DNA from: Candidatus Poribacteria bacterium | GTDB lineage: Bacteria; Poribacteria; WGA-4E; WGA-3G | Direction: 5' to 3' | NCBI GenBank assembly: GCA_022827625.1 | Contig: JAJEIE010000014.1 | Coordinates: 1 to 64,000, forward strand | DNA length: 64,000 nucleotides | Shown: one piece after another, positions 6,401-48,370 of the stretch | Layout: every line of letters begins with the position of its first letter | How positions within the stretch are numbered: the stretch's first letter is position 1 | The notes under the pieces: generated by a model | What the model saw: only the letters and a program-made list of their open reading frames with translations | Database searches by the model: none | What the model was told of the DNA's origin: nothing | Position numbers and translations under genes: made by a program

Positions 6401-7036
6401 CTAAAGCCGATTTCCTGCCCACAGCGCGCCTCGGCGGATAACCGTCTGAAAACTTGGATTCTCAAGCACCGCCATGTCGTGTCCAAGTGCAAAATAGAAA
6501 ACCCTACCTTCACCGTACGTATGGTGAAACGCCATCACGTGCGTCTCATCTTTCATTTCGTCATAAGCGTGCATCAAATGATGCGATGTGGCAGGATTGT
6601 GCTTCAGATAATAAAGTTCGTCCGTGGCATCAAAATCGGCTAATCCTTCCGTAATTGGATGATCAGTGTTACTTACATTAACCGTGAAATCCATATACGG
6701 ACTATGTCCATCAAAAAACCCGTTCAGCATACCGTGATAGCCTTCAGCTTCCCGAAACGAAGCAGCTGCGGTGTGCAACCCGAAAAAGCCTCCTCCCCTT
6801 CGGATATAACTGAGCAAACCCGCTTCTTGTGCCGAAGTCAGCTCCCCGACATCGGTGTAAAAAAGCACAGTGTCATATCCACCAAGTCCATTAGCAAGTA
6901 CATCGTAGTCTTGCGAGAAATCCGCTGCAATGTTGTCAGTGTCGTTGAGCATTGATGTCAAGAACTGCCCGTTCCCTGCATGGTCGTGATAAATACCCTC
7001 TGTTCCTACAAATATGAGTAATTTGAGTTTTTCCAT
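6401..7036 (-). CDS. ThuA-like domain protein
   Basis: A 211-residue ThuA protein with a class I glutamine-amidotransferase-like fold. It shows an LLIFVGT start, RRGGGFFGLHTA (the central turn) and the late HTYGEGRVFYFALGHD motif. ThuA domains are tied to trehalose or keto-sugar metabolism, although their chemistry is poorly defined. It starts only 10 bases after the stop of the upstream dehydrogenase (7047-8078), so the two form an operon driven by the promoter at 8111-8139. Confidence 0.88.
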   Translation of the reverse strand: MEKLKLLIFVGTEGIYHDHAGNGQFLTSMLNDTDNIAADFSQDYDVLANGLGGYDTVLFYTDVGELTSAQEAGLLSYIRRGGGFFGLHTAAASFREAEGYHGMLNGFFDGHSPYMDFTVNVSNTDHPITEGLADFDATDELYYLKHNPATSHHLMHAYDEMKDETHVMAFHHTYGEGRVFYFALGHDMAVLENPSFQTVIRRGALWAGNRL

Positions 7037-7046
7037 TCTACCTCCG

Positions 7047-8078
7047 CTAATCGTTAGGCATCACGAGCACTTTAACAGACCCATGTTCATCACGACCTGC
7101 AGCAACAGCGAATGCCTCGTTAATAGCATCTAAGTCGAACCTATGTGTAACCAAGGGGTTCGGATCGAGTTTACCGGCGGCGAGTAGGTCGATAGCAATT
7201 TGAAACTCCGTCTTTCCGCCATGTCTGCCGTAACAGAACGACCAGACCACAGTCAGCTCCCGACTCCGGGCAAACCGTTCTGTGAAGGTGAGGGGTGTCC
7301 GATGCCCGCCTACCATACAGACCCGACCACGCTTGGTCGCGATCTCTGTCGCCTGTTCCAGTGTGTTCGCCGTGCCACCGACGGCTTCAAAAACGACATC
7401 CGCACCTCTGCCATCGCTCCAGTCCATAATCGCTTCGACAGCATCCGTCTTGTCCACATTGATAGGCACAGCACCCACCGCTTCGTGAGCAATCTGTATC
7501 GGTCCATCTGGTTTTCCGAGCATAGCGATGGAGGTTGCCCCTGCGACATCTGCCACCTGTGCAATTGTCAGTCCGACAGGACCGCTCCCGATAATAGCGA
7601 CGCGATCTCCCGGTGACACCATCGCTCTGTTGACGGCATGAACCGCTACAGCGTAGACCTCTGCCAGCGCGCCGCCCTCAGCCGAGACGCTCTCTGGCAA
7701 GGCATAGATGTTTGGTGTCCGAGCGACCATAAATTCTGCAAAACCGCCACCGCCGTGCCGTAAATTCCCACAGATATTATAATTGCCGTTATAGCACTCT
7801 GGGCAGTCGTTGCATGGACTAATCGGTTCAACTGCCACGCGTGCCCCTTTGTCATAGCCTGTAACACCGCTACCTATGTCAATAATTTCTCCCATCAACT
7901 CGTGTCCACCGATACGGGGAGATAGGGGTTTCTCCGGTTGATGGTGGTATCCGTGTAGATCGCTACCACAGATTCCTGCCGCTTCCACCTGTACCAGCAC
8001 TTGTCCTTCTTCAGGCGTTGGGTCTGGCACGGTTTCAACTCTAATGTCTTTTCCACCGTAAAATTGTGCAGCTTTCAC
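7047..8078 (-). CDS. Zinc-dependent polyol/threonine-type dehydrogenase (MDR)
   Basis: A 343-residue medium-chain dehydrogenase. Cys37 and GGHE (His59, Glu60) form the catalytic zinc site; Cys89, Cys92, Cys95 and Cys103 bind structural zinc; GSGPVG (164-169) is the NAD(P) motif. It resembles sorbitol or threonine dehydrogenases and differs clearly from the dehydrogenase at 1535. It is the first gene of an operon with thuA. AGGAGG before the ATG is a good ribosome site. Oxidation of a sugar alcohol or a 3-keto sugar intermediate is the likely role. Confidence 0.9.
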   Translation of the reverse strand: MKAAQFYGGKDIRVETVPDPTPEEGQVLVQVEAAGICGSDLHGYHHQPEKPLSPRIGGHELMGEIIDIGSGVTGYDKGARVAVEPISPCNDCPECYNGNYNICGNLRHGGGGFAEFMVARTPNIYALPESVSAEGGALAEVYAVAVHAVNRAMVSPGDRVAIIGSGPVGLTIAQVADVAGATSIAMLGKPDGPIQIAHEAVGAVPINVDKTDAVEAIMDWSDGRGADVVFEAVGGTANTLEQATEIATKRGRVCMVGGHRTPLTFTERFARSRELTVVWSFCYGRHGGKTEFQIAIDLLAAGKLDPNPLVTHRFDLDAINEAFAVAAGRDEHGSVKVLVMPND

Positions 8079-8274: not shown

Positions 8275-9333
8275 ATGAGAACAGTTAAATTAGGCTTGAT
8301 TGGTGCAGGTGGCATCTCACAAGCGCATTGTGGTACTATTGCTAACATTGATGGCGCAGAAATAATCGCCGCTGCCGACCTCGTGCCAGCAAACCTTGAA
8401 CGCGCAAAAGAACGTTGGGGCATCAAACGCACATTTTCTGACTACAACGAAATGCTCAAAATGGACGAGATTGAGGCAGTCTACGTCTGTACGCCAACTG
8501 GTGTGCATGCCGCACCGACTGTCGCCGCCCTCAACGCAGGTAAACACGTCTTCTGCGAAAAGCCGATGGAGGCGACACTCAGTGCCGCTGCTGCAATGTG
8601 GCGCGCCGCAAAAGAAAACGATAAAATTCTAATGATCGGACTCAAACTCCGATATTCAGCACAAGTCATTAAAGCAAAAGAAATTGTTGACGCCGGCACC
8701 TTAGGCGACATCTATTACGCCGAAACCGTTGCCGATCGTCGCCGTGGGAATCCAGGGGGCAGTTTCATCGTAAAAGCAACAGCCGGTTTAGGGGCATCTG
8801 CCGACATCGGGGTCTACGCCTTGGATACCGCACTCTATCTGATGGGACATCCGAAACCCGTTGCGGTGTCCGGGATTACCTCTAACTATCTGAGCCTCCA
8901 CAACACATGGAACCCAGCACTTAAAGAGACCGAAGTTGAAGATTTCGGGGTCGGTTGGGTCGTCTTTGAAAACGGGGCGCGCATGGTCTTTAAGACCTGC
9001 TGGTGCATGAACATGGATTCGCTCGGTGGGACGATTTTCCTCGGCAAAAAAGCAGGCCTCCGCCTCGGTATCGGTGAAGTCCGGGGACCCGAGGAAGGGG
9101 TCCGCGTCTACGGCGACAGAGATGGTGAAATCTTTGACGAGGAGTTCACTGAATTTGAATCCGTTGATGTCTTCCACGCAGAAGATACGGCGTTTGTGGA
9201 TGCCGTCCGTGAAGGTAAACCCTCACCGATCGACCCGTACGGCGTGATGCTTACCAACGTTATCATTCAAGGTGTTATCGATTCCTCAAACGCCGGTGGA
9301 CGCGAAGTCGCAGTAACTGTGCCGACTTTATGA
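8275..9333 (+). CDS. Gfo/Idh/MocA family oxidoreductase
   Basis: A 352-residue oxidoreductase starting at the ATG after GGGAG; the open frame extends 25 residues further upstream but overlaps the promoter. GAGGIS (10-15) is the Rossmann turn and EKP (95-97) carries the catalytic lysine; IGLKLRY follows at the domain junction. It is divergent from the dehydrogenase-thuA operon, so the three may serve one keto-sugar or inositol pathway. It is only distantly similar to the paralogue at 2597. Confidence 0.9.
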   Translation: MRTVKLGLIGAGGISQAHCGTIANIDGAEIIAAADLVPANLERAKERWGIKRTFSDYNEMLKMDEIEAVYVCTPTGVHAAPTVAALNAGKHVFCEKPMEATLSAAAAMWRAAKENDKILMIGLKLRYSAQVIKAKEIVDAGTLGDIYYAETVADRRRGNPGGSFIVKATAGLGASADIGVYALDTALYLMGHPKPVAVSGITSNYLSLHNTWNPALKETEVEDFGVGWVVFENGARMVFKTCWCMNMDSLGGTIFLGKKAGLRLGIGEVRGPEEGVRVYGDRDGEIFDEEFTEFESVDVFHAEDTAFVDAVREGKPSPIDPYGVMLTNVIIQGVIDSSNAGGREVAVTVPTL

Positions 9334-9388: not shown

Positions 9389-9994
9389 ATGGCTTACAGC
9401 AATTTTACTTTGGAATCAGTCCGATCCGTGTTTAAATTAGAAACTGTTCAATCTATAGACCTTTTTTCTGAAATAGAACCTGTAACGCTGAGTTCACATT
9501 TCACGGAGGAATTGCGAAAAAAAGTCCCTTTAGCCGTTGCGATAGGAACAGAGAAAGCACGCTCCGAACTGATTGTGACGGGAGTCTTGTTTGAACTCCG
9601 CGAACACTTCGATCGCCGCATCAGTCTCTTTTCGGGTATCGACTTCAGTGTTGATGCGGAAAGCGGTTTAGTCGGTGTCTGTGATTTCTTGATAAGTTTG
9701 TCGCCAGAGCAATTTTTCTTGGAAGCACCGGTTATCGCACTGGTCGAGGCAAAAAATGCTGATGTGAAACTTGGGTTGGGGCAGTGCGTTGCTGAAATGC
9801 TTGCTGCACAACGTTTTAACGCCGAAAAAGGGAATAGCATTTCCTCCGTTTACGGCACGGCAACCTCTGGAACGGATTGGCTCTTTCTCAAATTGGAGGG
9901 GCAAAAGCTGCATATTGATATGGCAGTCTACACAATTGCACAGTGCGACAAGATCCTCGGTATTCTCGCAAGTATGGTAGAGCAAAAAGCGTAA
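9389..9994 (+). CDS. PD-(D/E)XK-like protein of unknown function
   Basis: I do not recognise a named family for this 201-residue protein. It has the hallmark spacing of a PD-(D/E)XK nuclease fold: an early Glu60 (KARSE), Asp99 (GVCDFLI), Glu120-Ala-Lys122 (LVEAKN) and Gln132 in GLGQCVAEM. The protein at 59789 is a clear paralogue with the same residues in order. A GGAGG site precedes the ATG. It may be a nuclease or a nuclease-fold protein; no partner is evident, and an RDD-PspA fusion gene follows 101 bases downstream. Confidence 0.6.
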   Translation: MAYSNFTLESVRSVFKLETVQSIDLFSEIEPVTLSSHFTEELRKKVPLAVAIGTEKARSELIVTGVLFELREHFDRRISLFSGIDFSVDAESGLVGVCDFLISLSPEQFFLEAPVIALVEAKNADVKLGLGQCVAEMLAAQRFNAEKGNSISSVYGTATSGTDWLFLKLEGQKLHIDMAVYTIAQCDKILGILASMVEQKA

Positions 9995-10095
9995 AAAAGA
10001 AGTATAGGCATACCGCGTTACGAAGGGTCCTAAATTTACCTATCCTTTTTTCTTCTTGTGTACTCTATGTTAATAAGCAAGGAGGCTATCCCAGA

Positions 10096-11274
10096 ATGAA
10101 GTCTATTAAAATCGCAGGTAAAGCGTTTAAATTAGGCTCCCGATTTGCGCGGTTGTCCGCGTTCTTGATAGATGGAATCTTTATAGCAGGTCTTCTATCG
10201 CTTATCGTCTTCGTTTTCAGTGCCCTGACTTCCGTGATTGGTGCGGGCCTCCGGATTGGATTGCTCAGCGTCCTTCTATGGACGCTCGGGCCCAGAACGA
10301 AAATAGATCGGGATGTGTTCCCGCTCATTCAAGTGGGTATCGTTGTCTTGTTCGGCCCATGGATAAACTACGGTCTTGAGACTTTAGTCTTAGGTGGAAC
10401 AGCGATAGGGGCAGCCCTTCTGTTTTTCATGGACGGTTTTAACAACGGACAAGGACCCGGCAAAAAGCTTCTGTCCCTACAAGTGCTCCGACTCAAAGAT
10501 GGCAAACCTTGCACAATGAAAGATTCTTTTATTCGACGTCTCACAAGTATCTTTCAACCCCTTGATTCTTTTTGGACATTTGGAAAACAACGACAGCGGA
10601 TGGGGGATAAATTAGTAGAGACTGTGGTTGTGAAACTTGCCTCGGAAGTAGAAGCGGTGGAAACCGATACCGAAGACCCTGAGAAAGTTTTAGAGAACGC
10701 TATTGTTGAAATGACACATCGACTCTCAGAGGGTCGTCAGAAGGTTGATGCTTCTGTCGCTGTTGAAAACCTGTTTCAGAACGCCTATGAAGGGGCTGTT
10801 GCCCAAGCAAAAAACTGGCAAGAACGTGCAATTATTAACCTCAACGCTGGACGCGAAGATTTGGCTCGTGAAGACCTTGAAAAACGGAACGAATATCGAC
10901 GGTTAGCAGATAAATACAAAACGCAGTGGGAAGAACAGAAACAGGTTGTTCAAGCACTCGGTGATCTCCTTGAACATCTTCAGCAGCAGATGACGCAGCT
11001 CGAAGGGAAAAAAGCAGTTGTCGTTGCACAACATAGGAACGTTGATGCCGAGGCACACCTCCGTGAGATGTTAAAAGAGATACAAGACAATAAAGCGTTT
11101 GAAGCACTGACGAAAATGGAACAGGATGCAAGCGAGGCAGCGACTTTGGCAAAAGCTGCCGCTGAAATAGATGTCGCATATCAAGATACGAAATCTGAGC
11201 GCGAATTTTCGAGTTATGCGAAAGAAGCTTCAATTGACAAGGACCTCGCTGACCTAAAGGCGAAATTATCATAG
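10096..11274 (+). CDS. RDD membrane domain fused to a PspA/IM30-like coiled coil
   Basis: A 392-residue protein. Residues 1-180 form an RDD-type membrane domain with hydrophobic segments near 22-45, 50-66, 76-92 and 95-112, the RLSAFLIDG segment, GQGPGKKLLSLQV and RMGDKLVETVVV. Residues about 192-392 are a long alpha-helical coiled coil like PspA/IM30, with the characteristic AGREDLARE (251-259). PspA normally binds stressed membranes peripherally; here it is covalently tethered. The start follows GGAGG with nine bases between; the open frame continues 51 residues upstream with no domain. Likely role: envelope stress or membrane remodelling. The fusion is seen, the role inferred. Confidence 0.75.
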   Translation: MKSIKIAGKAFKLGSRFARLSAFLIDGIFIAGLLSLIVFVFSALTSVIGAGLRIGLLSVLLWTLGPRTKIDRDVFPLIQVGIVVLFGPWINYGLETLVLGGTAIGAALLFFMDGFNNGQGPGKKLLSLQVLRLKDGKPCTMKDSFIRRLTSIFQPLDSFWTFGKQRQRMGDKLVETVVVKLASEVEAVETDTEDPEKVLENAIVEMTHRLSEGRQKVDASVAVENLFQNAYEGAVAQAKNWQERAIINLNAGREDLAREDLEKRNEYRRLADKYKTQWEEQKQVVQALGDLLEHLQQQMTQLEGKKAVVVAQHRNVDAEAHLREMLKEIQDNKAFEALTKMEQDASEAATLAKAAAEIDVAYQDTKSEREFSSYAKEASIDKDLADLKAKLS

Positions 11275-11315: not shown

Positions 11316-12788
11316 ATGGACACACATAACTTGCCCAATATTGTTTTTATCATGGCAGACGATATGGGATACGGCGATGTCGGCTGCTATAATCCGGACT
11401 CAAAGATTCCCACCCCCAATATGGATAAACTCGCGCAAGAGGGGATTCGCTTCACCGATGCCCACTCGCCTTCTGCTGTTTGTACACCCACGCGATATGG
11501 CGTACTCACCGGACGCTACTGCTGGCGGAGCCGACTCAAACACGGCGTGCTTTACGGATACGAACCACCCCTGATTGAACGCGAACGTTTGACGGTCGCT
11601 GGACTCCTGAAAGATGCTGGCTACAACACCGCCTGTGTCGGTAAATGGCACCTGGGACTCGAATTCTCAACAGTCCCCGGCTACGATTTTGACTTCAACG
11701 CTCCACTACCCTGGGGCAATGCAAGCCGTGAACTGGAAGACCATATTGACTTTACTGCACCGCTGACGGGCGGTCCTGTGGATATCGGCTTTGACTATTT
11801 CTACGGAAACGCCGGTTGCCCGACATGCCAACCCCCTTACGGCTTCATTGAGAACGATACCTTTGTCGAAATTCCAAGCACCTATCACGATGTGCCTGAG
11901 TTTACGAGTCGCCGTGGCATGATGGTTCCGGGATGGAAGCACAAGGATGCCGACCCAATGATCGCACAAAAAGCGGTCGAATACATTGAAGGGCAAGCCG
12001 ATGCTGATGCCCCTTTCTTCTTATATCTCACCCCTTCTGCCCCACACGAACCTTGCACAGAGGCAGTCGTGCCTGACTTTGCGCGCGGGAAAAGCAGTGC
12101 CGGTCCACGCGGTGATCTCGTCTGGCTTGTCGATTGGATGGTCGGTGAGGTTATGGACGCATTAGAGCGCACCGGTAAAACAGACGATACACTCATCTTT
12201 GTTACGAGTGATAACGGCGCACTGCCCGGCGATCGCATCCAAGGCGACAATAGTCCGATGCCGTATCATCTCTACGACCATAAGTCGTGTGGTGACTGGC
12301 GCGGCTACAAAGCACATATCTGGGAGGGTGGACACCGCGAACCGCTGATTGCACGTTGGCCCGGTGTCATCGCACCGAATACCGAAACCGATGCGCTCAC
12401 CTGCCTCACAGACCTTATGGCGACGTGTGCCGCTATTGTCGGAACAGAAGTCCCCGAAGCCGCTGGACAGGACAGTTGTAACATCTTACCGGCACTGTTA
12501 GGCGAAGAGACAGAACACCCTTTGCGGACGGCGATTGTACATCACTCCAGCACCGGTGTGTTTTCTATCCGGCACGGCGATTGGAAATTGATCATCGGAA
12601 CGCAAGGTTCAGGCGGGTGGCCCCCACCCCGTGACGGTGGTCCCAATCCCGATACGCCGGGGCAACTCTATCATATTTACGATGATCCAGGGGAAACAAA
12701 CAATGTGTGGGATACGTATCCTGAGATTGTTGGAAGATTAGCAGCACTGCTGCAGAAGTTTGAGGAAGAGGGACACAGCCGGATGTGA
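11316..12788 (+). CDS. Arylsulfatase (type I sulfatase)
   Basis: A 490-residue arylsulfatase A-type enzyme. ADDMGYGDVG supplies the paired metal Asp15 and Asp16, C-T-P-T-R (Cys56 to Arg60) is the formylglycine motif, GKWHLG and TSDNG are the other active-site blocks, and the protein ends with the usual LYHIYDDPGETNN region. The ATG at 11316 follows GGAG by six bases and is preferred over an upstream in-frame ATG at 11280. No signal peptide is visible. A PhyH-type dioxygenase follows 33 bases later and may be cotranscribed. It desulfates a sugar or aryl sulfate. Confidence 0.93.
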   Translation: MDTHNLPNIVFIMADDMGYGDVGCYNPDSKIPTPNMDKLAQEGIRFTDAHSPSAVCTPTRYGVLTGRYCWRSRLKHGVLYGYEPPLIERERLTVAGLLKDAGYNTACVGKWHLGLEFSTVPGYDFDFNAPLPWGNASRELEDHIDFTAPLTGGPVDIGFDYFYGNAGCPTCQPPYGFIENDTFVEIPSTYHDVPEFTSRRGMMVPGWKHKDADPMIAQKAVEYIEGQADADAPFFLYLTPSAPHEPCTEAVVPDFARGKSSAGPRGDLVWLVDWMVGEVMDALERTGKTDDTLIFVTSDNGALPGDRIQGDNSPMPYHLYDHKSCGDWRGYKAHIWEGGHREPLIARWPGVIAPNTETDALTCLTDLMATCAAIVGTEVPEAAGQDSCNILPALLGEETEHPLRTAIVHHSSTGVFSIRHGDWKLIIGTQGSGGWPPPRDGGPNPDTPGQLYHIYDDPGETNNVWDTYPEIVGRLAALLQKFEEEGHSRM

Positions 12789-12821: not shown

Positions 12822-13658
12822 ATGGAGACTATCACTAAACTTGATTCACTTTTCCGACTATCCGCGCCCTCTCAAGCGGATATCGACGCTTTTCATAACG
12901 ACGGCTACATCGCCTATCCAGACGTATTCACGGATGATGGACGAGAAGGGCTGATTGAAGAGATTACACAACGTTTTGAACCCGTGTGTCAGTACCTTGA
13001 AGCGTTGAATAACGGGGACGACCAACGGCGTCCGTATTTTATCCGTCCATGGAACGATCGCGGTGAATACAGCGACAGGCTCATCGATGATCCGTTCATT
13101 ACGACCCTGATACGCGCCACTATCGGCGAGGCATACCACTTCTGCCATTCCGCACTTAACATTGCACCCCGTGGGGTCGGGCCACTCGGATACCATCAAG
13201 ACCATCACCACTGGAAACATGAGAATCCTGTCAATCTCGCCGAGCGCGATAACTACTATATCCAAATTCTTTACTATCCCAACGGCTTCACACGTGGCGA
13301 TCGGAACCTCAAAGTGATACCGGGCAGCCATAAGGTCGCACCGACGAAAGAAGCAACCCCAGAACGGATGCTCGCAGGCGACTTCGACCATGAGGCAGGA
13401 CACAAGTTAGAAGAAAAAAGGCTTGAATTGCCGCCCGGAAGTATGGTCTACATCAACGCTCGTATCTTCCACGCAGTTGAGGAGAAACCGATAGGTTCTC
13501 CACAACCTTACCGCATTTTCGCCATTGACATCTTCAAGGAAGCCGGTCCACCCCACCGCTACACCCAAGAAATCCCGGATGAATGGATGGCGAACGCAAC
13601 ACCGTTCCGTCAGAAGTTATTCAACCGCAAGGCGTATACAGAAGGATGTTGGGCTTAA
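12822..13658 (+). CDS. Phytanoyl-CoA dioxygenase family protein
   Basis: A 278-residue Fe(II)/2-oxoglutarate oxygenase. His125-x-Asp127 (YHQDHHH) and His217 (FHAVE) form the metal triad and Arg231 likely binds 2-oxoglutarate; KVIPGSHK is a family block. Members hydroxylate lipids and small natural products. It follows the arylsulfatase closely, with GAAGGAG before the ATG, so it is probably in the same operon. The substrate is unknown. Confidence 0.9.
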   Translation: METITKLDSLFRLSAPSQADIDAFHNDGYIAYPDVFTDDGREGLIEEITQRFEPVCQYLEALNNGDDQRRPYFIRPWNDRGEYSDRLIDDPFITTLIRATIGEAYHFCHSALNIAPRGVGPLGYHQDHHHWKHENPVNLAERDNYYIQILYYPNGFTRGDRNLKVIPGSHKVAPTKEATPERMLAGDFDHEAGHKLEEKRLELPPGSMVYINARIFHAVEEKPIGSPQPYRIFAIDIFKEAGPPHRYTQEIPDEWMANATPFRQKLFNRKAYTEGCWA

Positions 13659-41797: not shown

Positions 41798-44700
41798 TTA
41801 AAACCGTCCCTTAAACTCAATATCGACACCGTGCTCGCCTTGATCGTTTGTCTCAATTTTGATGGACATATTTTCGCCAAGTGGGTACTCTGCCTGATAA
41901 CGCGCATCCTCCTCAAACGGACGCTGAACGCTAAACGTAAATCCGCCGAACGTTCTTGAGATCGCAGTATTACGGAGCAGAAACTCTATGATGTCTTCGT
42001 GTGTGAGGACCTCGGTTGTTGTCGTAGTCGGTGCACTGAGTGTAAAATTTGGATTATTTAAGGTGCCGGTGAACGTCGCATAAACCTGGATGTCTACGAT
42101 ACTTTCATCTCTCGGCAGGACCCCACGGATACGGTTTGGGGTTCGGAGAAGGATATTCAGATCCGGATTAAAGTTGAAGGAATCCCGATTGCTAATCGTT
42201 GAACCTTCAATGAATTCAAAAGGTTGTAAAACCAGTCCTATTTTTCCATCACGCACCGACACATCCCCCGTGAGAACCGGCTGATTGATCGGTCCAATGA
42301 GTTTCCCTAAGCAAGCGATTTCAAAATCTGTCGGTCCCGTAATCGACGAGAGGACTCGGAAATCGGAGGGTATATTGAGGTCCAGATCCAGATAGAGATC
42401 CCGTAGGATTGGATAATCCAACGCAACGTCGGCTTCGTTTATTGAGACACCCGTGAGCCAATCTCTGACGCTCTCCCAATTTTGCTGATAGTAGCCGCCG
42501 TCTATGTTCAAACTACCCGTTAGATACGGTTTCAGCAATCCGCCATGCAGACGGAATTCGGCGGAATTAAGGTTCGCCCGATACGCCGCTGGCTGCTCAA
42601 AGACGACATCTGCGATATTGGCAGAGATGTCCAGCACCGGCGGGGTTTGCCATATCCGTCTATCTGGTGGTGCGGTAATTGAACCTCGAATCGAAAAGGT
42701 TCCACCGTTCAATACACCGTCAAACGCTGTAATGCTCGCGCCTTTTTCGGATAACCGAATTTCACCCGCAGTCTCCTTAACGTCAATACCAGCGTCTGGA
42801 AATTCAAGTCCGACATCCTTGAAAGACACGTTGCCGATCGCTTGCGGTGCTTCAATCGTGCCTGTCAATTCAACGTGAATATTGCCTGTCCCCGTCGCAG
42901 AGCCGAGTCCAGACACCACAAACGGTAGCATATCAAGATCTGTCACGATAACATCCAGAATACCGTCCATTGGGGTCTGTTGGAACTCCTGCCAGACTGT
43001 CTCTGGTGTTTGTTGAATTCTCTGAATAAAAGGAATTAACGCCATTTGATAGGGCATCGTCCATGAGAAAGTCAGCAAATTTTCACCGAATGTCGCTTCA
43101 ACATACCGTTTTTTTGAAATCTCCCATTTCCCGTTTTGATACCGAACCCGCCACCGCAGATCAATCGGCACATCGTGCAGATAAAGTTCAGCAGGATCGC
43201 TTGTATGTCGCCGGATTGTTATCTTCGGATTCTCACTCGTTCCATTCAACTGAAAAGTTCCCGACAGTGCACCTGTAACCCTGTAAGACAGGGGCCAAGC
43301 CGCTGTCAATGCCGAGACGTCGAAATTTGCCACTCGGAGTGCTACATCAAATTCACCGTTTGTCCGCCAGATGGGCGCGGCATCAATGCTCAGCGTCGTT
43401 TTACCTGAGATCGTCCGATCATCGCCGAGGAGCTCTTCCGGCTTCCTGTCTTCGTCGCTAAAGGTCTGTTTGATTAAGAATGTCTCTTGGTTTTCGAGAC
43501 GAAACGCCTCGGTTAGCGTAACAGCACCATCACTGATAGCTATAAGTACCGGCTGCGGGTCTTGGAAATCGTAACGCCGATTGAGTGCCTTGAAAGCGAG
43601 ACGGACGCTATTAATCGATAACATTGCCTCTGAAACAGCCACAAGATCCACAAGTGAAGGTATCTCTTGAATCTCCGGAACCGGTAGCATCTCTCCAACC
43701 CCAAAAAACCTGTCAAGCGGCACCCTGAGTTCTCTGAGTGAGACTGTTAGATGACCTTCGATGTCTTCCATTACCTCTAAGGGGACAATTTCTCGCACCG
43801 TCGAACCGAGCGGAAATAGTTCAAACCGCAGCCCCTCTAATCTGATCCCTTTAGGAACCAGCCCGTCTAACACTAATCGTCCGCTTTGCAATCTACAATA
43901 GCCCGACCCCATTTCAAACGCAAAATTCGGAACATCAATCCTATTTTCCTCGGCAATCAGTTGGACCTTCATGTTTCGGATCGGTTCGTGGAAATTTTTT
44001 AAAATAAGTTGTAACGCCTCAAGAGACACGTTTCCCACCAGATAAGGGGATTGCGTCGTGCCTTGCAGTCTGATATCTATATCAACAGTGCCGTCTGCCT
44101 GAGAAAAAAGCGTGTCGATACCGGGGAAAAAATCCAATGGCAGTTCACTTCCCCGGAAACGCAGATGAATCGGTGCTTCGAGATGGCGTTCAGAAAGGTC
44201 CATTGACGCAAACGCCAAATTAAACGGAACAACGCCGCTCAGTGTTAGCGTGTCCGCACCGTCTTTTAGCGAAATATCTTCAATAGTTATCTGATTGTTG
44301 CTGTACTGGAGGTCTCCTGTCCACACCTTTTCATTCAGGTTCCCGTTCCACACGCCTGAGATAGTAGGCGCGTCAAGCGTACCCCCTACGCCGATACGTA
44401 CCGACGCACGCATTGTGGGAGACGTAATTTGTAGCGGGATCTCTACAGCGAGAGGCTCCGATTTCCCGTTAGTAGATGTTGACCCTGGATCAGAACGGAA
44501 CAGGAGTGGCGCGCTATTCACGAGATGGAAATCATAGCCATCAAGAACGAGTTCATTAATTTCACCAACGACTGTCATATCTTCTGGGACTAAACCCGTC
44601 CCGCTAAGTCTAACGTGTCCTGAGGCGACACCATAATCCGCAATTTCCACCTGTGATGCCGACACATCAATAGCGAACTGCATCACGTCAGTATCTCGGC

Positions 44701-47700
44701 GTGAGAATGCCGCTGCTCCTTGCACACGGTAGGTCCCGATCCCCATCTGTCCGTTTGCTTCCACTTTTGTGATATGTATGGATTCTAAACCGAAGTCGAT
44801 ATCAACACGCAATCTTTCCAATGTGATGGACGGAACATAGGATGCAAAAGAAATGGGACCTTGAACTGCCGTTTCAGCATAGAGTAGCACGTGCGGTTTC
44901 GCAAGCGTGCCTCCAATCTCCATGGAAGCCTCTAACACCCCTGTTATGTCACTATCGGCAACCTTCATGGGCAACGTAGCGAGATCCAGTGCGATGGTGT
45001 CAACACGGAGATGCAACTCGGAATTGTCAACATCTTCTGGTCGAACATCAATGCTCCCTTCCACGTTCACAGCGTTACCGAGAAGTTTGAAAGCACTGTC
45101 TTCGAGGCGTAGTGTTTCGTCCTGATATGCAACCTTACCACCAGCATCGCTTATCTCAATGTCGCCAACCTCGGTTTTCAATGTTAAGGTTGGCAGCGTC
45201 CATTTTAACGCAAGCACTGGAAGCGCAGGTGTCCCCGTTATGTCTACAGTATACCCCACCGTGCCACTCTGCAATATCTCATCATGCAACCCGAGTGCTG
45301 GAGCAAAGGGTGCCAGTGCAAAGCCGTCAGCACCGCCCTGAAAATTCATCGCTTCAGTTTTCGCGTCAAAGGTTCCCGTCAATTTAACGAAAGGATCGCT
45401 ATCTCCTAAGGTCTTTAAGGCAAAGGTCTCAATCGTCCATCTATCGTCTTTGAGGTGTAGGCGAATCGGTGCTGCGTTTGTGAACGGCATCCTGTGTCCG
45501 GTTTCCGAGTTCTCGTAATGGAGTTGACTCGTGGCAATGTGAATGTCAACATCGTAAGGATACACCTTCTTTTCTTCGGGTTCAGTAGATGCCGGTGCGG
45601 GTGCTAAGTCGGCTATCGTCCCACTTATCGAAACCTGACCGTCAGCGGTTCCCGTAACTGCCGCAAGTGTTGGGTGTAGGATACGCAGAAATGGAGCAAC
45701 ATCGATTCCGTTACCCGCTACGACGAAACGGTACGGATTACCCTCTGTCGTACCCACAGTCCCTCTAATCCGACTTGTCCCGTCAAAGCCGTGTCCCTGA
45801 AAATCAAAATGGCTATCAGCTATCAGAGCGTTCCGCTCCGCTCCACTCTCGGCAGTTAGTACTCCCTTTGTGGCGGTAAAAACGTCTTCACCTGCCACAA
45901 GGTTCTCTTGCTGACGGCTGATTGCCGACGGCTGATTGCCAGTCTCCACAAGTTTACCGAACAGGTACGCATCACCGAGAAGATGCTTAGATTCTGGTCC
46001 AGCGTGTAGATAGGTTATATCCGAGATGTCCAGTTCCACCCGAAAATCAGCGTCCTCTGATGCCCTGAGTATCCCGATGAACTGAACATCAAATTCGCCT
46101 TCAAAAGGAAAATCGGCTATATTTGCGGCTTTAGCAATCTCTTCAAAGCGGACAGGCGCGTCGCTTTCCACAAGGAGATCAAGATCGCCGTTAGGAGCCA
46201 TGGCGACATTCATCGTAAGCCGCTGCCCGCGCGTGGTTATCTTAAAATCGGAAATGCTAACGTTATAATCTTCAATCCTCAACGGGAGCGTTAGCGGATC
46301 TAAATGGACGCCCCATGCCACACTGTCGGTAACGCTGAAGTCAGCACGCCCATCAAGATTTATGAGTGTTCCATCTAATTTAAGTTCGCCGCTGAGTTCA
46401 CCCGTCACAGGATACTCCGCCCCCAACAACAATTTGGGATAGTGCTGAACATAAACAGGGTCAGCGATGATACTGAACACCACTGGAAACTCGCCTTTAA
46501 CGTCCACAATCCCGTTAATCGTGGCACGACTTTCATGTTGGCTTTCCGGCACAAGATTATCTTCGCCAATCGCTGACTGCTGACTGCTATCAACTTGATC
46601 GCTATACGTTAGCAATCCGTCTTCAATAAATACCCGACCCTCCTGATACCGATAATTCCCCGTCAGAACGCCGAGGGGGATGTCGTTGAAGGTCGCATCC
46701 GGTACCTCCAAAACCCCTTTTAGGATGCCATCTGACGACAATGTTGCAGACGATGTCCCCATACCTCCGATATCCGCGGTGTTCGCAATCTTTGTCAACG
46801 TGTCGAAATTGATACCTACTGCTTGAATGTCCAAAACGTCCTGCTGTCCCAACGGAAAAGGTGCAGCGACATCAATCGTGGTCACATCAAAGTTTCCGTT
46901 TGCCTTCAATTGACCGGCTTCAATCGTGCAATTGAGCCTTGAATCTTCAAGGACGACTTCATTGAGCGTCGTTTCAGTCAACGCTATTTCGCTGTCGAGA
47001 TTGAGATTTGAGAGGTCGGTGCCGGTTCCGCTGAATTTTGCGGTACCTGAGAGGTATCCTATCCCGTCTGAAAGGTATTCTGGGAGCGGCGTAAACATTG
47101 ACAAAAATGGGATGAGTTGAATTTCTGTGGCGTGCCACTGTCCGGTGTAGTGAAAGGGATGTGTCGTCAGTTGTCGCAGTTGCGTCAGCAAATTGTCTTC
47201 AAGCGGATTTTCCATACGGATGTCTCCCTCACCCGACAGGCTCCCATCGGCAATTTGTGCGCTGAGAGTCGTTAGTGTTAACGTCGGCGTGGGTGCGTGC
47301 TTGATATGTCCTTCAACTTTTAATTCTGCCAATACTATTTTTCGACCATCCCCTCCCTGGACCATAGAAAACGTCGGCATACTCGCAGTGAATGTCTTAA
47401 CGTCTAAAGCCGAATCCGTGCCTTCCGCTTCCAACTTCGCTTTCAGCAGACCTTCAAGTTCTATATCTTCGCCGAGAAACTGCTGGACATCCGCGACATC
47501 CAATTCGAGATTAAGAACCCCATCCCAAGTGAAGCCCAAACGATCTTCGCGCTTCTCGGTGCCATTCTCTTCGTGCCTAAATCCACCTTTAACTCTCAGT
47601 GCCGAATCGCCAAACGTAAAATAAAAGTCCTCTAACCGACTACCGTCCGCCAATAGCACAAAGTCCGCATCGAAGTTATTAATCGCCGTCTCAGCACCGT

Positions 47701-48352
47701 TGAACGTCAGACTCCCCTTGCCAATCCGTAGACTTCCATCATGGTCCCATGTGTTAAGCGTGCCATTCACTCTGATAGAAATGTCATTGATAGTTATGCG
47801 GAGGTCCTGTTGTGTATCGAGATAAGTAATTCTGCCACGATTCAATCTAATAGATTCAGCCTTGAAATCGAAGGATGAAGCTTCTCGTGGTGTGTCCTGC
47901 TGCTCTTCTTGTGGTGTGTTCTGTTGTTTAAGAATATGTGTAAGATTGAGGCTACCGTCAGCGTTCCGCACGACGTGAATCTGCGGTTCAGATACCTCCA
48001 GATTCTTTACCTCAAACCTGCGGATGAGGAGTCCGAGCAGATTGTATTTGAGAACAACTGTCCCTGTGGCGATTACGGGTGAGTCCGGTGCTTCCTTGTC
48101 TGAAATCGAAAGACTACCAATCGTAACATTCCCTAAGATATTCCCCTGTATTTCCCCAATGTCCGCAGTATAGTCGTCTGTTATCCGATTTCTGAGTTCA
48201 ACCTCAAGCCGTCCTTCTACCCAATCCAAGAAGGTCCCTGAACGGATAAAGAAAAACGTACCACAGATGAACGCTATGCCCAGAAAAACGAATATTTTGA
48301 TGAGGTTGGCAGGTCTCCAAAACCGCCTAATCATGCTATCGGCTTTTTCCAT
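41798..48352 (-). CDS. tamB: TamB-like translocation and assembly protein
   Basis: A very large 2184-residue protein with one N-terminal transmembrane helix (about 20-38) and a long repetitive beta-rich body, ending in the DUF490/TamB domain (about 1850-2184). TamB bridges the inner membrane to TamA and carries phospholipids or barrel proteins across the periplasm. The ATG at 48352 has GAGGA seven bases before it; an upstream TTG at 48370 is less likely. Residues about 800-848 are encoded by an in-frame copy of the junction element. About 586-611 (SSQQSAIGEDNLVPESQHES) may be a second, shorter trace. Confidence 0.9.
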   Translation of the reverse strand: MEKADSMIRRFWRPANLIKIFVFLGIAFICGTFFFIRSGTFLDWVEGRLEVELRNRITDDYTADIGEIQGNILGNVTIGSLSISDKEAPDSPVIATGTVVLKYNLLGLLIRRFEVKNLEVSEPQIHVVRNADGSLNLTHILKQQNTPQEEQQDTPREASSFDFKAESIRLNRGRITYLDTQQDLRITINDISIRVNGTLNTWDHDGSLRIGKGSLTFNGAETAINNFDADFVLLADGSRLEDFYFTFGDSALRVKGGFRHEENGTEKREDRLGFTWDGVLNLELDVADVQQFLGEDIELEGLLKAKLEAEGTDSALDVKTFTASMPTFSMVQGGDGRKIVLAELKVEGHIKHAPTPTLTLTTLSAQIADGSLSGEGDIRMENPLEDNLLTQLRQLTTHPFHYTGQWHATEIQLIPFLSMFTPLPEYLSDGIGYLSGTAKFSGTGTDLSNLNLDSEIALTETTLNEVVLEDSRLNCTIEAGQLKANGNFDVTTIDVAAPFPLGQQDVLDIQAVGINFDTLTKIANTADIGGMGTSSATLSSDGILKGVLEVPDATFNDIPLGVLTGNYRYQEGRVFIEDGLLTYSDQVDSSQQSAIGEDNLVPESQHESRATINGIVDVKGEFPVVFSIIADPVYVQHYPKLLLGAEYPVTGELSGELKLDGTLINLDGRADFSVTDSVAWGVHLDPLTLPLRIEDYNVSISDFKITTRGQRLTMNVAMAPNGDLDLLVESDAPVRFEEIAKAANIADFPFEGEFDVQFIGILRASEDADFRVELDISDITYLHAGPESKHLLGDAYLFGKLVETGNQPSAISRQQENLVAGEDVFTATKGVLTAESGAERNALIADSHFDFQGHGFDGTSRIRGTVGTTEGNPYRFVVAGNGIDVAPFLRILHPTLAAVTGTADGQVSISGTIADLAPAPASTEPEEKKVYPYDVDIHIATSQLHYENSETGHRMPFTNAAPIRLHLKDDRWTIETFALKTLGDSDPFVKLTGTFDAKTEAMNFQGGADGFALAPFAPALGLHDEILQSGTVGYTVDITGTPALPVLALKWTLPTLTLKTEVGDIEISDAGGKVAYQDETLRLEDSAFKLLGNAVNVEGSIDVRPEDVDNSELHLRVDTIALDLATLPMKVADSDITGVLEASMEIGGTLAKPHVLLYAETAVQGPISFASYVPSITLERLRVDIDFGLESIHITKVEANGQMGIGTYRVQGAAAFSRRDTDVMQFAIDVSASQVEIADYGVASGHVRLSGTGLVPEDMTVVGEINELVLDGYDFHLVNSAPLLFRSDPGSTSTNGKSEPLAVEIPLQITSPTMRASVRIGVGGTLDAPTISGVWNGNLNEKVWTGDLQYSNNQITIEDISLKDGADTLTLSGVVPFNLAFASMDLSERHLEAPIHLRFRGSELPLDFFPGIDTLFSQADGTVDIDIRLQGTTQSPYLVGNVSLEALQLILKNFHEPIRNMKVQLIAEENRIDVPNFAFEMGSGYCRLQSGRLVLDGLVPKGIRLEGLRFELFPLGSTVREIVPLEVMEDIEGHLTVSLRELRVPLDRFFGVGEMLPVPEIQEIPSLVDLVAVSEAMLSINSVRLAFKALNRRYDFQDPQPVLIAISDGAVTLTEAFRLENQETFLIKQTFSDEDRKPEELLGDDRTISGKTTLSIDAAPIWRTNGEFDVALRVANFDVSALTAAWPLSYRVTGALSGTFQLNGTSENPKITIRRHTSDPAELYLHDVPIDLRWRVRYQNGKWEISKKRYVEATFGENLLTFSWTMPYQMALIPFIQRIQQTPETVWQEFQQTPMDGILDVIVTDLDMLPFVVSGLGSATGTGNIHVELTGTIEAPQAIGNVSFKDVGLEFPDAGIDVKETAGEIRLSEKGASITAFDGVLNGGTFSIRGSITAPPDRRIWQTPPVLDISANIADVVFEQPAAYRANLNSAEFRLHGGLLKPYLTGSLNIDGGYYQQNWESVRDWLTGVSINEADVALDYPILRDLYLDLDLNIPSDFRVLSSITGPTDFEIACLGKLIGPINQPVLTGDVSVRDGKIGLVLQPFEFIEGSTISNRDSFNFNPDLNILLRTPNRIRGVLPRDESIVDIQVYATFTGTLNNPNFTLSAPTTTTTEVLTHEDIIEFLLRNTAISRTFGGFTFSVQRPFEEDARYQAEYPLGENMSIKIETNDQGEHGVDIEFKGRF
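45811..45955. repeat. Junction-family element inside tamB
   Basis: The word GCGTTCCGCT with flanks CAGAG and CTCCACTCTC (45825-45852) nearly matches the elements at 49476-49504 and 54505-54533. About 60 bases later TCTTGCTGACGGCTGAT (45908-45924) matches the end of the 54474 element. The insert is in frame and adds about 45 residues. Confidence 0.75.
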
Positions 48353-48370
48353 CTTCTGTTCCTCGGACAA

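Follow-up and report, generated by a model that had tools for sequence, protein, structure and literature searches.

PspA is a bacterial relative of the membrane-sculpting ESCRT-III proteins; it is normally peripheral and associates reversibly with membranes. Candidatus Poribacteria are uncultured, sponge-associated bacteria. In PspA, Vipp1 and ESCRT-III, the membrane work that comes from polymerisation hinges on alpha0, the N-terminal amphipathic helix, and on reversible binding. PspA deprived of alpha0 still builds rods, but membrane tubulation is lost (PMC12358876), and the alpha1-3 hairpin can bind membranes by itself (PMC12636044). In Vipp1 (IM30), alpha5 and the interface residues F197 and L200 matter for assembly (PMC8281802). 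More than 98% of PspA homologues show little variation, and fusions are rare, at less than 2%; those named by Ravi et al. 2024 involve NlpC/P60, PspAA and tandem PspA (PMC11237479). The same survey describes an actinobacterial Snf7-RND fusion, in which an ESCRT-III-like domain is joined to a transporter-like membrane protein. RDD proteins are a separate membrane family, of which one, from Halobacillus andaensis, is reported as a Na+(Li+,K+)/H+ antiporter (PMC5996927).

The gene described here joins an RDD domain to a PspA core. It lies in a window of 64,000 nucleotides, the whole stretch of DNA that was analysed, from a Candidatus Poribacteria bacterium, with the following parts.

10079..10085, + strand: Shine-Dalgarno sequence aaggagg, 10 nt 5' of the ATG, read from the sequence
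10096..11274, + strand: RDD-PspA fusion gene, 392 aa plus stop
10096..10635, + strand: RDD membrane domain, residues 1-180, with four predicted TM helices and the R19/D26/D171 motif
10636..10677, + strand: acidic, low-confidence linker, residues 181-194, occupying the place of alpha0
10678..11268, + strand: PspA/IM30 core alpha1-alpha5, residues 195-391, with F371 at the position of Vipp1 F197

The start is placed at ATG 10096 because of the aaggagg at 10079-10085 and because the N-terminus (MKxIKIAGKKFKLASR) is common to the window protein and its relatives; the same two features rule out a longer ORF opening with GTG at 9943. An earlier note, made from the letters alone, had recognised RDD features in the N-terminal part and PspA in the C-terminal 200 residues or so, and profile searches bear out both. 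PF06271 (RDD) matches residues 15-172 with 39.9 bits (curated cut-off 24.1, E 6e-10), with the motif complete, and PF04012 (PspA_IM30) matches residues 182-390 with 77.1 bits (cut-off 33.9, E 2e-21). Each half also scores when searched alone. With phmmer against the PDB, Vipp1 and PspA are the best sequence relatives (E 2e-15). A generic coiled coil with no PspA_IM30 match, the outcome that would have overturned the note's reading, is ruled out by the profile, PDB and fold searches. Scores fall under the cut-offs of the NCBIfam models for PspA (TIGR02977, 60.8 bits against 242.95) and LiaH (NF045984, 42 bits against 380). By its sequence, the protein is a holder of a PspA_IM30 domain and not canonical PspA at the equivalog level.

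An assembly or frame artefact is ruled out, as the architecture recurs in 56 genomes, mostly in intact frames of 340-400 aa. All ten relatives located in named genomes are labelled Candidatus Poribacteria. The Poribacteria sample comprised 85 genomes, 59 in the window's family and 26 others. The fusion, intact or broken, was found in 56 of the 59 (the exceptions being G027, G066 and G072) and in none of the 26. Among 160 genomes of other phyla, matches fell on the PspA or the RDD side and none spanned both halves; these genomes are a sample and no census, and the fusion may occur elsewhere. A scan of 387 genomes with a strict RDD pattern returned a single match, the pattern being too strict. 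Arrays hold one to four copies, tandem arrays of two to four being frequent, and copy number across the family ranges from 0 to 4, with broken copies in G011, G074 and G013. In one genome (G064, L082:6986-8067) RDD and PspA occupy two overlapping frames, with a TTG start for PspA; the gene may truly be split there, or the assembly may be wrong by one base. The window gene is the sole RDD match in its genome.

The main text of the Ravi et al. survey (PMC11237479) mentions neither RDD nor Poribacteria, nor does a second PspA survey (PMC9239133), and none of the PspA fusions named in the former is to a multi-pass domain that replaces alpha0. The fusion thus seems unreported in these PspA surveys and in the open literature searched, though a database may well contain it without comment.

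An AlphaFold2 model of the window protein, a monomer predicted with moderate confidence (pLDDT 70, pTM 0.35), contains four TM helices (residues 16-47, 52-67, 75-91 and 94-114), a disordered linker, and helices alpha1 (195-250), alpha2/3 (254-311), alpha4 (317-358) and alpha5 (369-391). Searched with Foldseek, it places Vipp1/PspA assemblies on top, including PspA alpha1-5 (9hzm), with E from 3e-6 to 5e-4. The alpha1-alpha5 helical fold with a long hairpin, which marks PF04012 members, is therefore present in the model and in its best structural matches. A shorter paralogue, also modelled as a monomer, has two TM helices and a low-confidence alpha4 region. The flanks of the TM region are positively charged (+6/0 at residues 1-20, +13/-6 at residues 113-181). 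From the two predicted structures, the even number of TM helices in both proteins and the positive flanks, the PspA part is predicted to lie in the cytoplasm. The likeness to PspA/Vipp1 thus extends to the alpha1-alpha5 core, the DPE start, the REDLARE motif, the F197 equivalent and the best Foldseek matches; the difference is a multi-pass RDD domain in the place of alpha0, which would make the protein integral and not peripheral. With the RDD family, including the Halobacillus antiporter, it shares the TM domain and the R-x6-D plus distal D motif, but it carries a 200-residue PspA tail, and two or four TM helices are predicted in the fusions where three are predicted in the Halobacillus protein.

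The exchange of alpha0 is best seen against free PspA of neighbouring Poribacteria families. These proteins score 180-204 bits with PF04012, from profile position 1-3 and with alpha0 included (MGIFDRVSTIFKANVNSALDKAEDPEKML in L070, for example). In the fusions the match begins at about position 10-25 (position 11 in the window protein). The 18 residues preceding the DPE motif are acidic and weakly amphipathic in the fusions (net -2.8, moment 0.24) and basic and amphipathic in free PspA (net +1.0, moment 0.50); a few fusion rows were placed at the wrong motif, which dilutes the difference and does not create it. No N-terminal amphipathic helix alpha0 was recognised in the window protein. The late profile start and the acidic segment indicate that, in the sequences, alpha0 has given way to the RDD domain plus a short acidic linker, alpha1-alpha5 being kept.

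What has been kept includes residues of the Vipp1 assembly contacts. In the phmmer PDB alignment, read by eye, F371 aligns with F197 of interface 3 and Y374 with L200; the former is invariant in 76 of 76 fusion copies, and the latter is Tyr in 74 of 76. Given that PspA without alpha0 builds rods, and that alpha5, F197 and L200 matter in Vipp1, the fusion, as judged from these alignments, keeps the parts needed to polymerise and has swapped the part that grips the membrane. A TM domain that replaced alpha0, apparently once, and has been retained across a family lets one ask, as in an experiment set up by nature, what purpose alpha0 serves. It bears equally on whether a polymer of the ESCRT-III type can function when it never leaves the membrane.

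The explanation we favour, with moderate confidence, is an integral-membrane, cytoplasm-facing, ESCRT-III-like PspA polymer. The RDD domain would span the cytoplasmic membrane, its two ends facing the cytoplasm, and would perform, permanently, the bilayer attachment that is the job of alpha0. The core alpha1-alpha5 would project into the cytoplasm and polymerise sideways through ESCRT-III-type hairpin and alpha5 contacts, the product being a membrane-fixed scaffold or carpet, perhaps of benefit by stabilising the membrane. Against such a polymer, subunits that each carry a TM domain might not pack as tightly as they do in rods. PspA rods without alpha0 do not tubulate membranes, moreover, and RDD may not make up for the loss; any remodelling by the fusion may thus be unlike that by canonical PspA. 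The earlier note had proposed a permanently anchored PspA, of distinct design, for envelope stress or membrane fission. The anchoring, and with it the distinction from peripheral PspA, holds up in the two predicted structures, the even TM count and the positive flanks. The stress and fission part fares less well: PspC (PF04024) gave no match in the window's genome, which is 95% complete, whereas 7 of 14 control genomes were positive, and PspA without alpha0 does not tubulate.

In a tree, all sampled PspA domains of the fusions form one clade (support 100) beside free PspA of a neighbouring family (f4). The simplest reading of this placement is a single origin by fusion of a resident PspA. When the two ORFs to either side of free PspA in the sister families were inspected by eye, no RDD gene that might have been the precursor was recognised. 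A long stem branch, of 1.19 changes per column, leads to the clade, and the function of the fusion may therefore have shifted. Copies in the last array position from two genera group together in the tree, so the duplication is old. The window species has one copy, nearest to the first-position copies. Its closest relatives by sulfatase (L056, L057, L109) have a second-copy-type RDD (window 10096-10635 against L057:6274-7350); neighbouring species have therefore lost different array members, or recombined.

Purifying selection acts on both halves, to judge by coding changes, as synonymous change far exceeds nonsynonymous change in each. Between the window copy and that of L042, pN and pS are 0.07 and 0.59 in the PspA half and 0.12 and 0.53 in the RDD half. 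This disfavours a degrading or selfish tandem gene, that is, a fast-evolving insertion without much function. The varying copy number, the broken copies, the absence from G066 and G072 and the long stem branch would suit such a gene, but its retention in 56 of 59 family genomes and the near invariance of the motif residues across 76 copies would not, and we regard it as very improbable.

Within one locus, the PspA halves of paralogues resemble each other more closely (70% identity) than the RDD halves do (52%; 52 pairs). As synonymous sites are near saturation in both halves of these pairs, stronger constraint on the PspA core accounts for the difference better than general gene conversion; pairs in L081 and L043 do suggest local conversion. 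Similar cores with divergent anchors suggest a mixed bacterial polymer. In the polymer we favour, two to four paralogues would most likely mix through their similar cores, giving one polymer with different RDD domains. A bolder form of this idea is improbable: the tandem paralogues would assemble together into an integral ESCRT-III-like coat, a heteropolymer with a common core and different TM modules, and this coat would give the poribacterial cytoplasmic membrane its shape or divide it up. Poribacteria have long been suspected of cell compartmentation, but membrane-coat-like proteins were looked for in them and not found (PMC3909097); the papers examined on this compartmentation, that one included, mention neither phage shock nor sulfatase.

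The same divergence between halves is what one would expect of carriers that share a tail but differ in substrate, and it belongs to the main rival explanation, that of a regulated transporter. Here the RDD domain would carry ions or solutes, and the PspA part would be a cytoplasmic sensor or clustering tail by which the carrier is gated or gathered, without membrane remodelling. The RDD motif is nearly invariant among 76 fusion copies (R19 in 76, D26 in 75, D171 in 76), RDD residues 116-180 are strongly constrained (pN 0.04, pS 0.44 against L042), and, by analogy, antiport by the Halobacillus RDD protein depends on conserved Arg and Asp residues (PMC5996927). However, the TM helices are the least conserved part of the protein (mean column identity 0.37-0.39), and paralogues have between two and four of them, a variation not usually seen in a carrier with its path in those helices. 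We consider a transporter of this kind a serious candidate, yet unlikely.

The neighbourhood of the fusion is conserved, and in the window it consists of the following genes.

6401..7036, - strand: ThuA-like protein, divergent conserved neighbour
7047..8078, - strand: zinc alcohol dehydrogenase, divergent conserved neighbour
8278..9333, + strand: Gfo/Idh/MocA oxidoreductase, conserved upstream neighbour
9389..9994, + strand: 201-aa protein; 8 loci have homologues, most of which lie between Gfo/Idh and the fusion
11319..12788, + strand: type I sulfatase, 489 aa, conserved downstream neighbour
12822..13658, + strand: PhyH-like dioxygenase, conserved, further downstream

Family-wide, the order is Gfo/Idh, RDD-PspA array, type I sulfatase and PhyH; in many loci the alcohol dehydrogenase and ThuA genes are oriented divergently. 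The 201-aa protein has no Pfam or NCBIfam match. The sulfatase is nearest to a putative secreted sulfatase (7oze), N-acetylgalactosamine-6-O-sulfatase and S1_15 enzymes; it begins at the catalytic domain, and no signal peptide was seen in its sequence. The fusion could be an accessory of the operon that anchors or clusters a cytoplasmic sulfatase/oxidoreductase pathway at the membrane, for instance by a sulfated-sugar importer. In loci with enough contig, the array does lie between Gfo/Idh and the sulfatase, with gaps to the latter that are mostly 2-45 nt. But common descent in one family alone can account for the constant position, and the fusion evolves faster than the enzyme (pN 0.07-0.11 in its PspA half, 0.03-0.05 in the sulfatase). 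Moreover, in two genomes, G072 (L120:5604-9055) and G066 (L121:6168-9622), Gfo/Idh, sulfatase and PhyH are directly adjacent with no RDD-PspA, and a third (G049) has close Gfo/Idh and sulfatase orthologues, likewise without it. Thus the fusion is separable from the enzymes, and these fusion-free versions weaken a tie to the sulfatase as main explanation; we find it improbable.

In a Gfo/Idh-sulfatase tree, G066 and G072 are sister to the remainder of their genus (g20, support 91). With a single origin, the fusion must have been lost there. It is not essential, since these two family genomes have an intact operon without the gene and others have broken copies. Comparison with the operon of G066 and G072 could show what the insertion contributes.

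In the window's family, a profile search of the genomes found no canonical high-scoring free PspA. Other PspA-like genes of the window's genome are divergent: a free one, beside an ABC transporter, scores 60.6 bits, and another, in a 298-codon frame, 29 bits. At L061:7777-10882 in this genome, genes for an ABC ATPase and an ABC_tran_2 protein come immediately after a divergent free PspA, and similar trios occur in L075 and L077. In other Poribacteria families, canonical free PspA adjoins a protein of 133-151 aa (MSKLNT... and similar; L067:7263-8453, L070:7117-8267, L064:6959-8119, L080:7598-8755), which is possibly the CesT/Tir-like PspA partner of Ravi et al. A 101-aa protein (MFIEII..., with no Pfam or NCBIfam match) is found in or just after RDD-PspA arrays in 14 loci (for example L044:7918-8223). 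Elsewhere in the window, an ORF of 2190 aa occupies 41798-48370 on the - strand.
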